Source of the DNA: Cupriavidus pauculus
GTDB taxonomy: Bacteria > Pseudomonadota > Gammaproteobacteria > Burkholderiales > Burkholderiaceae
DNA: 64,000 bases
Direction of reading: 5' to 3'
Assembly (NCBI RefSeq): GCF_003854935.1
Contig: NZ_CP033971.1
Span: 248,001 to 312,000 of the forward strand
The notes beneath the pieces are model-generated. The model made no database searches. It saw only the letters and a program-made list of their open reading frames with translations, and was not told the origin of the DNA. Shown in pieces: positions 1,670 to 12,309 of the stretch. The stretch's first letter is position 1; each line of letters starts with the position of its first letter. Both the position numbers and the translations under genes were made by a program.

Positions 1670-2044
1670 CTACTTTGACCGGTATTCCACGCCAAACCGC
1701 TCGCACAGTCCGGCCAACCGCTTGTCGAGCGTCCAAAGCCGCGCCTGCGGCGTCAGCAGGGCCGAAGCGAGCAGCATCACGTCCACCAGACCGCATCCGG
1801 CGCCATATAGCCGTTCTTGCTCCACAAACGCCATCGCCTCCGCAAGCGTGGCCTGGTTCGCCTGCTGGAGCAGGCCGACGCTAGCCAGCGTGCGGCTTCT
1901 CGGCTCCGGAGGCGTGCCGCAAGTGAGTTCGAGCAGCACCATCGGGTGCGACAGGACACGATCCGACTCCAGCAAGGCGACGAGCGCCGTGTTGCTGCGC
2001 TTGAAGTGGGAGACCCACACCGATGTGTCAACCAGCACCATCAT
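1670..2044 (-). CDS. vapC: PIN-domain toxin VapC
   Basis: A 124-residue PIN-domain ribonuclease, the toxin of a type II toxin-antitoxin pair. VapC toxins cut tRNA or rRNA and are held inactive by VapB. The sequence opens with the typical beta-strand and first acidic residue ([13 protein letters not shown], Asp at about 6), has the second acidic position in LLELTCG (Glu about 39) and the third in [15 protein letters not shown] (Asp about 88); a fourth acidic residue sits near LWTLDKRL. Length is normal for the family. Its ATG overlaps the antitoxin TGA (ATGA), so the two are translationally coupled. A terminator follows directly. Confidence 0.92.
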
Positions 2045-2238
2045 AGCGACGGCGCCCGGCGAGGAATCTCCTGCATGTCGGGCTGCGCGCCACCCAGTGC
2101 GGCCAGCCGTTTAGCGGCTTGGACACGCACGAACGTTTTGATGGCCTCCCGAAACAGGTCCGTCCGGTCCATGGACGTGTCGGCCAACTCAAGGGCTTGC
2201 TCGTAGAGCGAATCTTCTATTGTGACGGTAGTGCGCAT
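2041..2238 (-). CDS. vapB: VapB-type antitoxin
   Basis: A 65-residue protein starting [20 protein letters not shown], a ribbon-helix-helix N-terminus (beta-strand RTTVTI, then two helices) typical of short VapB antitoxins, with a C-terminal tail expected to wrap the PIN toxin. This start is chosen because GGAG lies 8 bases upstream; a longer frame extends upstream but has no such site. The gene overlaps vapC by four bases. A palindrome just upstream is the expected autoregulatory site bound by the VapBC complex. Confidence 0.88.
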
Positions 2239-2256
2239 ATCACCGCTCCAAAAATG

Positions 2257-2270
2257 ATGCGATTTCGCAT
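2257..2270. promoter_or_regulatory. Candidate vapBC operator
   Basis: ATGCGA-TT-TCGCAT is a perfect palindrome 18 bp upstream of the vapB start, placed where VapBC complexes commonly bind to repress their own promoter. Confidence 0.5.
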
Positions 2271-2385
2271 TAATTTTAGCATCAACCGTGCGATTACGGA
2301 AGCGTCTCTCAGGATGTAGACCGTCAGCAACGGCTGATTGGCCTGCAGCACCTCGTTCAGATGCACGGCTTGAGGGTCTCATGGT

Positions 2386-2505
2386 GTGGTGGCGCCCGAT
2401 GGCTGCGGCGTGGAGGCGGTGGTCGACGACCTGGTGGCGCGCACGCCCGGGGCCGTGGCGGCGGTTCGCGCGCGACTTCCGGCGGAGTTTCCAATGCATG
2501 TGGCC
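2386..2505 (+). pseudogene. 3' remnant of a hipA gene
   Basis: The frame reads [20 protein letters not shown] followed by [14 protein letters not shown], the extreme C-terminal helix and tail seen in HipA-type kinases. Nothing of the kinase core remains. The homology stops abruptly at VADS, where a transposase fragment takes over in the same frame. It differs from the intact hipA farther along the window, so it marks a lost second module. Confidence 0.6.
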
Positions 2506-3361: not shown

Positions 3362-4669
3362 TTACGGGCGACTCGGGAAGATTCCCTGTGTGCAGATCAC
3401 GTAGTACAGGCCGGTCGGCTCTAGCGCCCGGAGATCCGGAAGCCGGAAATTGGTGACGCCATCGCCGCCGAATTTGACCCCCAGCAGCGCAAACAGTGCC
3501 TGGTTGTTCTGAATGCTCAGGACGCGCCCGTCGGCACGCACCCCACCAGCCGCGAAGCTCGCGGCGGAGAGCCATACCGTGGCCATCGTGCAGTCGCCGC
3601 TGACGCCATCGCCCACGGAGGGTTCGTTATTGCCCAACCCGGGAACCGTGCCGGCCGGACCTGTGGCGCCGGTTGCGCCTGTGGAGCCCGTCGCACCCGT
3701 CGCACCCGTTGCACCCGTTGCACCCGTTGCACCCGTTACACCCGTTGCACCCGTTGCACCCGTTACACCCGTTGCACCCGTTGCACCGGTCGCGCCCGTT
3801 GCGCCTGTCGCGCCATTTGAACCGGTGGCGCCGGTCGGCCCAGTCGCACCGGTTGCGCCGTTGGAACCCGTATTGCCCTGAGCCCCCGTTGCGCCGGTCG
3901 GACCCTGCGGACCCGTCGCTCCGGTCGAACCGTCCACACCGTTCGCGCCCGCAGCACCAGTTGCGCCCGTTGCACCCGTCACGCCAGTAGCGCCAGTAGC
4001 ACCCGTTGCGCCAGTGGGGCCAACCGGCCCCACCCTGCCCTGCGCTACATCGCTCGATAGCGCTGCCAGTGTCAAATTGGTCAGCTTGAGCTTTGATGCG
4101 ATCTCTTCCAGGCGATCGTCGTAGTTATCGCCGTTGCGGGGATTGAACTTCTGGTTCAACAGGTTCAGAGAATCGGCGTCGACACCCAGCGACGACAGGC
4201 GCTGCTTAACCTGCGTGATGGCCAGAGCAAGCTTGTCGCTGGCGGCTGCGGCGGAGACCGTCGAGAAGCTCGCGAAGAATGCTGCTGTATCGGCATTGCC
4301 GGTCGCGGCCGCGACCACCAGCTCGGTGATCGGCGTGACATTGGTGGTGCCGGCGCTTTCGATGTACGAATGCAACACTTCGCCTGCGGCTGTAGTTACG
4401 CGCAACACGCACGGCAGAGCCAGATTTGCAGTGGAAGTGCTCCAACTGCCGTCCGTCCCAGTGGTGACCGTCGTCTGACCGCTGACGCATTTGACCGTCA
4501 GCGCCGCGTTGGTGATGGGCGCACCCGTGGCTGCAGTGCCCGAAATAGTGGCTGCCGGCAGTGCCGTCGGAGTGCTGGCGCTGGTTCCTGAGTCGTCGCC
4601 ACCACCGCAGCTGGCAAGAAGTACCGACGTGGCGATCGAAAGGGCGGCAGCCCATTGCTGTTTTTTCAT
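3362..4669 (-). CDS. Collagen-like Gly-X-Thr lipoprotein with tail-collar domain
   Basis: A 435-residue predicted lipoprotein. Residues 1-20 form a signal peptide ending in the lipobox LLAS-Cys21. Residues about 38-100 look like a small beta-sandwich ([20 protein letters not shown]), followed by a helical segment to about 212. Residues 214-339 are 42 uninterrupted Gly-X-Y triplets, 33 of them with Thr at Y (mostly Gly-Ala-Thr), which should form a trimeric collagen-like stalk. The C-terminus (about 370-415, [20 protein letters not shown] then [14 protein letters not shown]) matches the phage tail-collar domain, a likely trimerisation head. Expected to be anchored in the outer membrane. Thr-rich collagen repeats in other bacteria are O-glycosylated, and the divergent neighbour is a glycosyltransferase. 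Confidence 0.85.
3653..4030 (-). repeat. Collagen-like tandem repeat DNA
   Basis: DNA encoding the 42 Gly-X-Y triplets. The core near 3700-3790 is nearly pure 9-bp units (GCACCCGTT on the plus strand), so copy number may vary by slippage. Confidence 0.85.
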
Positions 4670-4891
4670 TTTTCCCGTTCCCGTGAGAGTGGAAGATTTC
4701 TGAGGATTTGGCCTCCGGAGCGGTATGCGCGGCCGCTGCTCGTGGCGGCCAGCATGTTAGCGATGACTGGATCAAACGGGGCATTGCATTTTCACCCCCC
4801 CTCGGAGGGGCAGACAGGCCGCGCACATGATTCGCGAACGACCAGCAAAGCGGGTATGCTTTGCCCGGATTTTTGCCACTCGGAGTCTCAC

Positions 4892-5974
4892 GTGCCCCGC
4901 ATTTGCCTAAACATGATCGTCAAGGACGAAGCTCCAGTGATCGAGCGCTGTCTGGCGAGCGTGAAACCGTGGATCGACCATTGGGTCATCGTGGACACGG
5001 GATCAAGCGACGGCACGCAGGACACGATCCGCCAGTTCATGGCAGACCTGCCGGGCACACTGCATGAGCGGCCGTGGTGCGACTTCGCGCACAACCGCAA
5101 CGAGGCCATGGCGCTCGCCCGCACGGCCATGGAAGGTGCGGACGACTACCTGCTGTGTATCGACGCCGACGAGACGCTGCGCATGGACGTCGATTTCGCA
5201 TGGCCCGATCTGCAGGCCGACGGCTACCAGTTCCGCTGCGAGCTTGACGGCTGGCATTACTTGCGCAACGCATTGGTACGCGCGCGCCAGCCATGGCGGT
5301 GGGAGGGCGTGCTGCACGAATTCCTAACGCAGGACAGAGCGCACCGTTGGGATGTGCTACCTCATGCCACCATTGTCGTATCGCGCGACGGCGCACGCGC
5401 GCGTGATCCGCACACGTATCTGCGCGACATCGAGGTGTTGGAGAAGGCCGTCCGCGAGGCGCCCCGCAATACACGCTACCGATTCTATCTGGCGCAAAGT
5501 TGTCGCGATGCGGGTATGTTTGACGAGGCCATCCGCCATTATGAGGCACGCACCGCGATGGGCGGCTGGGAAGAGGAAGTCTGGTTCGCCCGCTATCAGA
5601 TCGGCGCGCTGCGCGAACGCCGCGGCGACGCTCCGGCCGTAGTGCAGGCGACCTATCTCGATGCCTACCAGCTGCGACCCACGCGCGCGGAGCCGCTCTG
5701 CGCGCTGGCCCGTTACCACCGGCTGCGGGGCGAATTCGCGCTTGCGCACCTGTTCGCGCAGCAGGCCGCCGCCATGCCGCGTCCAGCCGACACGCTGTTT
5801 ATCGACGATTCCGTCTACACCTGGCGGGCAATCGATGAACTCGTCGTGAGCGCCTATTACGTTAGCGCCATCGAGCAAGGCCGCCTGGCGCTGCAGCGGC
5901 TGCTCGAAGAGCGGCAGTTTCCCGAAAGCGAACGAGCCCGCATTGAGGCCAACTGCCAGTACTTTGGCATCTAG
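4892..5974 (+). CDS. GT2 glycosyltransferase with TPR-like C-terminus
   Basis: A 360-residue family-2 glycosyltransferase. The start is taken at a GTG with GGAG 6 bases upstream (product VPRICLNMIVKDEAP); a longer frame exists but lacks this site. Residues 1-110 hold the GT-A nucleotide-sugar fold: CLNMIVKDEAPVIERCL, VIVDTGSSDGTQD, FAHNRNEAMALAR, and the DXD-like metal site LLCIDADETLRM. The C-terminal half (about 170-340) is helical with TPR-like pairs (YRFYLAQSCRDAGMFDEAIR, PLCALARYHRLRGEFALA). No signal or membrane segment is seen, so it should act in the cytoplasm. It is transcribed away from the Gly-X-Thr collagen-like gene; I infer, without proof, that it glycosylates that protein. Confidence 0.85.
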   Translation: MPRICLNMIVKDEAPVIERCLASVKPWIDHWVIVDTGSSDGTQDTIRQFMADLPGTLHERPWCDFAHNRNEAMALARTAMEGADDYLLCIDADETLRMDVDFAWPDLQADGYQFRCELDGWHYLRNALVRARQPWRWEGVLHEFLTQDRAHRWDVLPHATIVVSRDGARARDPHTYLRDIEVLEKAVREAPRNTRYRFYLAQSCRDAGMFDEAIRHYEARTAMGGWEEEVWFARYQIGALRERRGDAPAVVQATYLDAYQLRPTRAEPLCALARYHRLRGEFALAHLFAQQAAAMPRPADTLFIDDSVYTWRAIDELVVSAYYVSAIEQGRLALQRLLEERQFPESERARIEANCQYFGI

Positions 5975-11019: not shown

Positions 11020-12309
11020 CTACAGTCGGCCATTTGACGCTGATGACAAGCGCTCGCTATAGGCGAACGCAGAATGTGCGTCCGCAATCAGGGAATCCAG
11101 GTTGGGTCCTGTCCCGAGGATTGGCTTGGCTGCTTGGCGCAACATGGTTTCCCAGTGTTCGGCCACAAGTCGCGCCGTTAGCGAAATCCAAGACATAGCT
11201 GCCTCCCGATCTATACCGAAATGGCTGGCTGCGCTCGAAAGCCGTTCCACGCTGGCTCGTGCGAGTCCATCCGCACCAGTCGCCATAGAGAGCACAGGAG
11301 CGTCAGCACCGCCGGGCTGCCGGGCCGACATTACTGGCGTGATATCAAATGCCGGTGCAAGGCGCCAGCTGCGTTTGACACCGCCTTCGTGGATGAGGCC
11401 ATGATTCAAAGGGTGATCATCCGTATTGCCCACCAGCGCGTTGAAAACCATCCGTCGCCATAGTTCTTCCAACTGTCTGGCCAGGTCGTCACGGCCCTTC
11501 GCCCAAACCCGCAAGGCATCACCAAAATTGAGATAAGACCGCCGCGGATCGCCACGCACCGCATCCAAAGGCAGCCGGAGGACCGTATGTGCGCTCGCGA
11601 ACAACCGGCGCTGAGGCCGATACGGGTCGCCCCTGCGATCAAATCGCTCTACGAGCAAGACTTGATGGGAACCAAAGGTGTGCAATACCACTGGGGCGAC
11701 ATCAAGGCCCGCCATTTGCGCCAGGCGCATCGCGACGAATTCCCGAGCCGGCATAGCCGAGCGGTCACCACGATCCTGCATTTTGGCAAGCCAGAGCCGT
11801 CCATCGTGCACCAGTGTCGCCTTTGGCCGCTCTCCACCCGCGCTCGTATCTAGATCAGCGTTAAGTCGCCGTAGCGCGCGACTTGCGGGATCTGCCGCAT
11901 CCAACTCTTCCGCCAGGTATTGAAGCTCTTCCAAACCTTTCGGCTTCCACGCAAGCTTGCGTTCGATCTCTGTGCATACCTCAATCGCACCGACACCATC
12001 AGGCACCCCCCGCTCGAGCAATTCGAAAGGTGTGAGCTCCTTTCCAGCATGAGCCATCAGACGGTCCGCACCGTAGCCGGCCGGCTTTGCGTCGCGAATT
12101 ACCCCCGGAAGGCCGTCCGCAGCGGCTATTGCAATCCCGCGAGCATTGCGCACAAGCCGAAGTTCAACCGGATCAAGCGGAACCGCGTCGTCCCGAGAAA
12201 GATAATCGCGGGAATAAACAAAGCGCGGCGTGCCTTCCAGAGTTAGGTCTGCCGCATGAGTCGGGCTGTCCTCTCCGGGGAGCCATGCCCAAACCGGAAC
12301 GCCGTTCAT
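11020..12309 (-). CDS. hipA: HipA-type serine/threonine kinase toxin
   Basis: A 429-residue HipA-family kinase, the toxin half of a HipBA module. E. coli HipA phosphorylates glutamyl-tRNA synthetase and induces persistence; the target here is unknown. Visible elements: the ATP-lid region GGERPKATLVHDGRLWLAK (about 158-176), the Arg/Phe block LLVERFDRRGDPYR, the catalytic loop NALVGNTDDHPLNHGL (Asn, Asp and His conserved), and the metal-binding LAPAFDITP. Length is normal. Its start overlaps the upstream hipB stop by four bases, so the two are coupled. Confidence 0.9.
   Translation of the reverse strand: MNGVPVWAWLPGEDSPTHAADLTLEGTPRFVYSRDYLSRDDAVPLDPVELRLVRNARGIAIAAADGLPGVIRDAKPAGYGADRLMAHAGKELTPFELLERGVPDGVGAIEVCTEIERKLAWKPKGLEELQYLAEELDAADPASRALRRLNADLDTSAGGERPKATLVHDGRLWLAKMQDRGDRSAMPAREFVAMRLAQMAGLDVAPVVLHTFGSHQVLLVERFDRRGDPYRPQRRLFASAHTVLRLPLDAVRGDPRRSYLNFGDALRVWAKGRDDLARQLEELWRRMVFNALVGNTDDHPLNHGLIHEGGVKRSWRLAPAFDITPVMSARQPGGADAPVLSMATGADGLARASVERLSSAASHFGIDREAAMSWISLTARLVAEHWETMLRQAAKPILGTGPNLDSLIADAHSAFAYSERLSSASNGRL

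Follow-up and report, generated by a model that had tools for sequence, protein, structure and literature searches.

A divergent gene pair in a 64,000-nucleotide stretch of a Cupriavidus pauculus genome (G000:C4:248001-312000, hereafter the window; Cupriavidus genome of 6.18 Mb in 4 contigs) probably encodes a bacterial collagen together with the enzyme that modifies it. The first gene (3362..4669, minus strand) specifies a collagen-like lipoprotein and the second (4892..5974, plus strand) a glycosyltransferase (GT) in which a GT2 catalytic domain is followed by a tetratricopeptide repeat (TPR)-like tail. With a probability of about 80%, the two genes form a substrate-enzyme pair in which the GT glycosylates the threonines of the Gly-X-Thr region of the lipoprotein, giving an exported, glycosylated collagen stalk. 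Gene linkage and sequence comparison indicate that the GT is very probably the O-glycosyltransferase of the collagen's threonines. We infer that the lipoprotein is glycosylated and that the stalk has a role in stability or adhesion; by analogy, the sugar would be N-acetylglucosamine (GlcNAc).

The two genes co-occur within the genus. Among 61 Cupriavidus genomes, 15 have the lipoprotein (counted at an N-domain identity of at least 53%) and 19 the GT (counted at 45% identity or more, with the G005 gene, broken across contig ends, included). The GT accompanies the lipoprotein in all 15; four of the 19 GT genomes, including G028 and G036, are without that lipoprotein, and 42 genomes have neither gene (Fisher p 5e-11, kinship not corrected for). 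The association extends to gene order, and the conserved neighbourhood postulated in the preliminary description is indeed found: a Gly-X-Y array lies within 1.5 kb of 13 of the 18 full-length Cupriavidus GTs, as against none of 12 control loci of weakly matching other Cupriavidus GT2 genes (flank 1.5 kb, shorter in one). Ten of the 18 GTs are divergent from the lipoprotein and one (G008) is co-directional, following it. Two others (G040 and G017) adjoin a collagen-like protein of another class, which gave no BLAST match to the N-domain or the tip of the window lipoprotein. In Cupriavidus metallidurans CH34, the GT relative (45% identical) is encoded directly downstream of a Gly-X-Thr collagen gene, on the strand that carries the latter.

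The same association was observed at greater phylogenetic distance. In a survey of the family, the GT was detected at E<=1e-40 in 11 of 201 genomes and in 2 of 25 genera, a patchy distribution. A profile built from 9 GTs and run on GTDB species genomes yielded at least 465 relatives, of which the best 80 by score (44-88% identity) were analysed; these loci are not independent, and eight from Cupriavidus and Ralstonia are also part of the genus survey. Among the matches listed, the nearest GT is from Cupriavidus pauculus (88%). Under a strict rule (at least 10 consecutive Gly-X-Y triplets without Gly at X or Y), an array is present at 50 of the 80 loci and is Thr-rich, with Thr at Y in at least 40% of triplets, at 46. 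This rule misses some arrays, and one locus (L163) is regained when it is relaxed. By relaxed counting, a Thr-rich array lies within 2 kb of the GT at 43 of the 80 loci, at 37 of the 62 whose flanks extend at least 2 kb either way, and at 28 of the 42 with 10 kb on each side, compared with 1 of 42 at 5-10 kb. Array density falls from 25.3 per 100 kb at 0-1 kb from the GT to 0.36 at 7.5-10 kb, an approximately 70-fold drop. Borderline cases include L168, with just an 8-triplet stretch in the gene preceding the GT, and L173, whose Thr-rich array is 5 kb away, yet belongs to a gene ending 110 bp before the GT.

Thr-rich neighbours were seen in Comamonadaceae, Paraburkholderia, Moraxellaceae, Nevskiaceae, Lysobacteraceae, Polyangiaceae, Verrucomicrobiota and Bacteroidota. 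Plasmids give a similar picture: an array occurs in 15 of 17 records, 0.3-2.5 kb from the GT and with 50-100% Thr at Y, the positives coming from Methylobacterium, Mesorhizobium, Enterobacteriaceae, Peribacillus and Cupriavidus. Of the 17, 4 are Cupriavidus chromids and 6 are Enterobacteriaceae plasmids (five with one identical GT protein). The two exceptions are from Acinetobacter, with a YadA-type neighbour, and Citrobacter, with an autotransporter of just 4 triplets. GT relatives were also found in 12 phage records. In a Tunturiibacter jumbo phage (L135 8001-16948), the relative (41-43% identity) lies 3.7 kb from a tail-fibre gene; the part of the fibre examined contains 82 triplets with 65% Thr at Y, the array being 5.5 kb from the GT. 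Co-occurrence of Gly-X-Thr collagens with GT2-TPR genes, for which the preliminary description proposed a search in Burkholderiaceae, reaches well beyond that family.

Some of these loci have features of separate interest. In Acidovorax facilis (L157), at least four successive open reading frames (ORFs) with arrays, of 26-27 triplets each and 77-81% Thr, are located upstream of the GT. In Mesorhizobium (L298 4244-10790), type I secretion genes adjoin a DUF4347 protein whose 99 Gly-X-Thr triplets have 100% Thr, and the GT relative forms part of a larger protein with the annotation glycosyltransferase family 25.

The two genes recur as a unit in differing surroundings. Among 14 relatives compared with the first 16 kb of the window, ten (L063-L069, L071, L072 and L077) share essentially the two genes only, and window-type pairs occur in about five flanking contexts (single linkage, up to 7 kb per side). 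The DNA of the pair is 77% identical to the chromid of Cupriavidus sp. EM10 across 97% of the query. G040 resembles the window in three genes close to the pair, which show 74-84% identity with flanking genes of the window, and in the GT, which is 64-65% identical. Since the flanks and the GT match the window and the N-domain and tip of the partner do not, the collagen partner appears to have been replaced in this genome and the enzyme kept. Inherited synteny alone is insufficient as an explanation, given the variation in flanks, orientation and partner class and the changes of adjacency on the GT tree. When 70 GTs are placed on a tree, the label 'adjacent' (44 rows) switches 14 times, as against an average of 21.3 after shuffling, at least 10 changes being forced by starred branches; seven added rows, including Mesorhizobium (2.4 kb) and the phage (array 5.5 kb off), were set adjacent by hand and L163 was scored not adjacent. 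Adjacency on the tree is clustered, yet repeatedly lost or regained.

The element common to the partners is Thr-rich Gly-X-Y. At E 1e-4, BLAST sorts their end parts into 32 groups, 11 of which have several members, and remote kinship between groups is possible; the largest N-group is joined by single linkage, the start rule placed some N-termini too far upstream and a few partners are not Thr-rich. All four orientations of GT and collagen are found (19, 11, 8 and 5 cases). If the GT glycosylated its partner at Ser or Thr outside the collagen, in the N-domain or the tip, gene adjacency would be equally expected, and the N-domain of the window protein is Thr/Ser-rich by eye. Such a target seems very unlikely, given that the Gly-X-Thr array persists while the ends diverge into so many groups. 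The Thr content of the arrays also speaks for the substrate-enzyme pair. In Cupriavidus, Thr at Y averages 0.68 in 13 GT-adjacent collagens versus 0.38 in 20 others (p 0.0003) and, among the latter, 0.53 in the 9 from GT genomes versus 0.26 in the 11 whose genomes lack the GT (p 0.04), in comparisons that were sorted by hand and not corrected for kinship. The 30 best-scoring PF01391 loci supplied 4 GT-adjacent and 20 non-adjacent collagens, 6 being dropped as low-complexity or wrong-frame matches.

Several observations weigh against the pairing of GT and collagen. Five of the 18 full-length Cupriavidus GTs have no array within 1.5 kb. In four genomes (G003, G004, G005 and G007; loci L074, L075, L076 and L080/L081) the GT edges a flagellar cluster, identified through FliG and FliK by Pfam in G003 and by eye in the others, in G005 via its neighbours. 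The GT of G036 (Cupriavidus respiraculi), 72% identical, occurs in a genome without any PF01391 match. Conversely, PF01391 scores over cut-off in 45 of the 61 Cupriavidus genomes, with or without the GT, so that collagen presence alone tells little and the finding that only 3 of 14 well-known genomes match PF01391 is a weak control. At 11 collagen loci not adjacent to a GT, 10 of them Thr-rich, no GT of the GT2-TPR family was found in the flanks examined. In the GTDB survey, a Thr-rich array within 2 kb is lacking at 25 of the 62 loci whose flanks extend at least 2 kb either way. The strict rule left 26 misses. A search of 21 of these genomes gave PF01391 over cut-off in 18, the loci read including a Thr-rich collagen in 14 (L163 among them, adjacent under the relaxed rule) and a Thr-poorer one in 4, and no collagen by Pfam in 3; at the other 5 the arrays are Thr-poor or 2-3 kb off. 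Linkage is weak among the 80 best relatives on viral contigs, with an array in 26 and a Thr-rich one in 20; a Thr-rich array lies within 2 kb in 9 of 57, with no single peak at 0-1 kb.

Part of this evidence could indicate that the GT modifies another surface molecule (flagellin, lipopolysaccharide or another protein) and that its closeness to collagen merely reflects the clustering of surface genes in variable regions. The four GTs beside flagellar genes and the 25 of 62 loci without an adjacent Thr-rich array are consistent with this, as are GmaR being the closest solved enzyme (E 1.2e-18) and the presence of wbdA about 3 kb downstream of the GT on one Enterobacter plasmid. It is nevertheless unlikely: the distance decay is steep around the GT, arrays are absent around the 12 other GT2 loci, the pair is common to unrelated flanks, and the flagellar-cluster genomes still carry the collagen lipoprotein, elsewhere. 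A consistent association of the GT with lipopolysaccharide or capsule genes, which the preliminary description named as a refuting condition, was not apparent on reading the gene lists, no systematic search having been made, and the only other context seen to recur there is the flagellar cluster edge of the four Cupriavidus genomes.

Thr at Y is also found away from the GT. Eleven of the 20 non-adjacent Cupriavidus collagens are Thr-rich (at least 0.4), as are 4 of the 11 whose genomes lack the GT. Bacterial collagens in general often have Thr at Y, in 31.6% overall according to the available sections of a review (PMC8968730). Thr might accordingly serve at Y for triple-helix hydration only, in the absence of glycosylation, array length being set by slippage of a 9-bp repeat. 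The same sections describe Thr as the residue that prevails at Y in bacterial collagens and discuss it in connection with hydration networks (PMC8968730), and a 9-bp tandem array is present in the window gene. However, this leaves the GT linkage unexplained and is at odds with the use of all four Thr codons and with the higher Thr at Y of GT-adjacent arrays; it is the least probable of the explanations considered here. The substrate-enzyme pair thus remains the preferred reading.

The lipoprotein gene is an ORF of 435 amino acids with an ATG start, in which PF01391 and PF07484 score over cut-off. A lipobox, LASC (4607..4618, minus strand), was read from the translation within the stretch SVLLASC after a hydrophobic signal, and predicts a lipoprotein with Cys21 as the first mature residue. 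The N-terminal domain (residues 22-207; 4049..4606, minus strand) resembles many Cupriavidus proteins. It recurs at about 34-45% identity in proteins of about 540-650 amino acids, and at L086-L102 in open frames of about 540-700 amino acids with about 34-42% identity; a collagen array is absent at all 17 loci (16 kb each) of these paralogues, two of which gave no match when scanned with Pfam. The phage family phrog_32117 (function not assigned) matches residues 4-210, and the whole lipoprotein gave no tblastn match at E 1e-5 to 50,697 phage records.

The presumed glycosylation substrate is the collagen region (residues 211-342; 3644..4039, minus strand), in which 44 Gly-X-Y triplets follow one another unbroken; 33 of them have Thr at Y and 27 have Ala at X. 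The preliminary description had the number of Thr residues right and counted 42 triplets instead of 44; its lipobox and tail-collar ends are confirmed. Shuffling the protein 2000 times gave no Gly-X-Y run longer than 7, and the Pfam Collagen model scores 69.8 bits (cut-off 27.2). Part of the region is a 9-bp tandem array (Tandem Repeats Finder: 12.9 copies, 90% matches). All four Thr codons are used (ACG 19, ACC 7, ACT 5, ACA 3), so that the copying of a single 9-mer does not by itself account for the Thr residues. Among lipoprotein orthologues, array length varies by species from 31 to 69 triplets. The C-terminal tail-collar (Collar) domain (residues 374-415; 3425..3550, minus strand), a presumed trimeric tip, scores 54 bits with PF07484 (cut-off 24) and is the sole match to this family in the genome. 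Membership of the Scl/Lcl adhesins was considered and rejected, NCBIfam scores of 95.2, 92 and 72.2 bits being far below the respective cut-offs of 400, 325 and 500.

The GT gene, delimited from the ORF and a 42-row alignment, encodes 360 amino acids from a GTG start. Its GT2 catalytic domain (residues 8-97; 4913..5182, plus strand) scores 36 bits with PF00535 (cut-off 23.3) and includes a DxD motif, D91-A92-D93 (5162-5170, plus strand), invariant in 42 of 42 alignment rows. The TPR-like tail (about residues 175-302; 5414..5797, plus strand), presumed to bind the substrate, matches designed TPR proteins in the PDB at E 4.5e-14; Pfam TPR models also match it, all below their cut-offs. Apart from the designed TPRs, the nearest solved sequences are GmaR, a flagellin glycosyltransferase, and SunS, which glycosylates a Cys of a bacteriocin. 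By sequence the GT is akin to protein and peptide glycosyltransferases. Membership of the SunS family itself was rejected (NCBIfam equivalog, 26.7 bits against a cut-off of 350). The enzyme is taken to be cytoplasmic because its sequence, by eye, starts straight with the catalytic domain. The divergent GT2 enzyme with a TPR-like tail, 222 bp from the lipoprotein gene, is as first described. The intergenic region (4670..4891) shows conserved blocks with six Cupriavidus relatives in a 7-sequence alignment, which suggests a shared control region. Elsewhere in the window, a putative PIN-toxin/antitoxin pair of the VapBC type (1670-2499, minus strand) and a putative HipA-type kinase gene (11020-12309, minus strand) were noted by eye.

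The kinship with GmaR and SunS, together with the precedent of SgtA (see below), leads us to infer cytoplasmic O-glycosylation of Gly-X-Thr before export. In the proposed mechanism, the GT acts ahead of export or in the course of it and would move a sugar from a nucleotide donor onto the Y-position Thr of the lipoprotein's Gly-X-Thr region. The protein, so modified, would then be exported, lipidated at Cys21 and probably placed in the outer membrane, and would trimerise to form a glycosylated collagen stalk with the tail-collar tip as its cap. The GT would recognise the Gly-X-Thr repeat itself and neither anchor nor tip, so that anchors and tips can change in evolution while the pairing persists. 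The surface-fibre system with its own O-glycosyltransferase that had been envisaged is thus supported as a pairing. 'Self-contained' is too strong a term, since the sugar donor must be supplied by the host, four Cupriavidus genomes separate the genes and other Thr-rich collagens of the genus have no such GT beside them.

The GT family is tied to Gly-X-Thr collagens in Pseudomonadota, Myxococcota, Verrucomicrobiota, Bacteroidota and Bacillota, and lies near one in a phage. If the pairing is as proposed, collagen O-glycosylation would be widespread and largely predictable from sequence. A wider and distinctly more tentative proposal is that one horizontally mobile GT2-TPR family acts as a general collagen O-glycosyltransferase of bacteria and some phages, reading Gly-X-Thr whatever its carrier (lipoprotein, autotransporter, secreted protein, spore fibre or tail fibre), with glycosylated Thr at Y acting like animal hydroxyproline. 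A table in the available part of the 2022 review lists bacterial collagens as mostly not glycosylated (PMC8968730); under the general proposal, many that are described as unmodified would be glycoproteins. With collagen O-glycosylation widespread and predictable in this way, one could test by what means bacterial collagen, lacking hydroxyproline, is stabilised or decorated, and the two genes would offer a simple route to recombinant collagen in glycosylated form.

A surface collagen stalk between end domains is known from Scl1/Scl2 and Lcl, and from the Bucl proteins of Burkholderia, the latter according to the description in the available part of a review. Closer parallels include the glycosyltransferase. 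In the accessible text of a Bacillus preprint, the Thr/Ser-rich collagen F-BclA has a putative glycosyltransferase encoded two genes upstream (PMC11952670). On the Peribacillus plasmid (L302 102-9053), a collagen-like gene (56 triplets, 98% Thr at Y) is followed by a glycosyltransferase and then by a relative of the window GT (33% identity); this locus differs in having two GTs in a row and in being on a plasmid with a gene for an exosporium protein C. On the six Enterobacteriaceae plasmids (L299, L300, L301, L305, L306 and L307), a GT relative of 33% identity (WP_059387039 in five of the six) is located directly downstream of a Gly-X-Thr protein, with 27-51 triplets and 96-98% Thr in five and 4 triplets in L305. 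Here the partner is an autotransporter beta-barrel protein and mobile-element genes are close by. The wbdA mentioned above, on L306, is an O-antigen-type gene.

The best precedent is provided by SgtA and BclA3 of Clostridioides difficile. According to the available text, SgtA has 358 amino acids, with a GT-A domain and with TPRs at the C-terminus, and its gene lies immediately upstream of bclA3; in vitro it transfers beta-O-GlcNAc onto Thr of BclA3 collagen-repeat peptides, Ser also being accepted, in a metal-dependent reaction in which UDP-GlcNAc was the only donor used of three (PMC7157674). The window GT matches this description in length, in the layout of GT domain and TPRs and in its Gly-X-Thr collagen neighbour. 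BclA3, as described there, is a spore (exosporium) protein of a spore-former, with predicted transmembrane helices and a Gly-Pro-Thr repeat, whereas the window pair comprises a lipoprotein with a tail-collar tip, belongs to a betaproteobacterium and consists of divergent genes. In the open-access literature, outside which most subscription journals lie, no description was found of the GT2-TPR family with non-spore collagens or of linkage across phyla. As far as these sources reach, a GT beside its collagen is already known from Clostridioides difficile, and its linkage to collagens outside spores and across phyla appears to be new.

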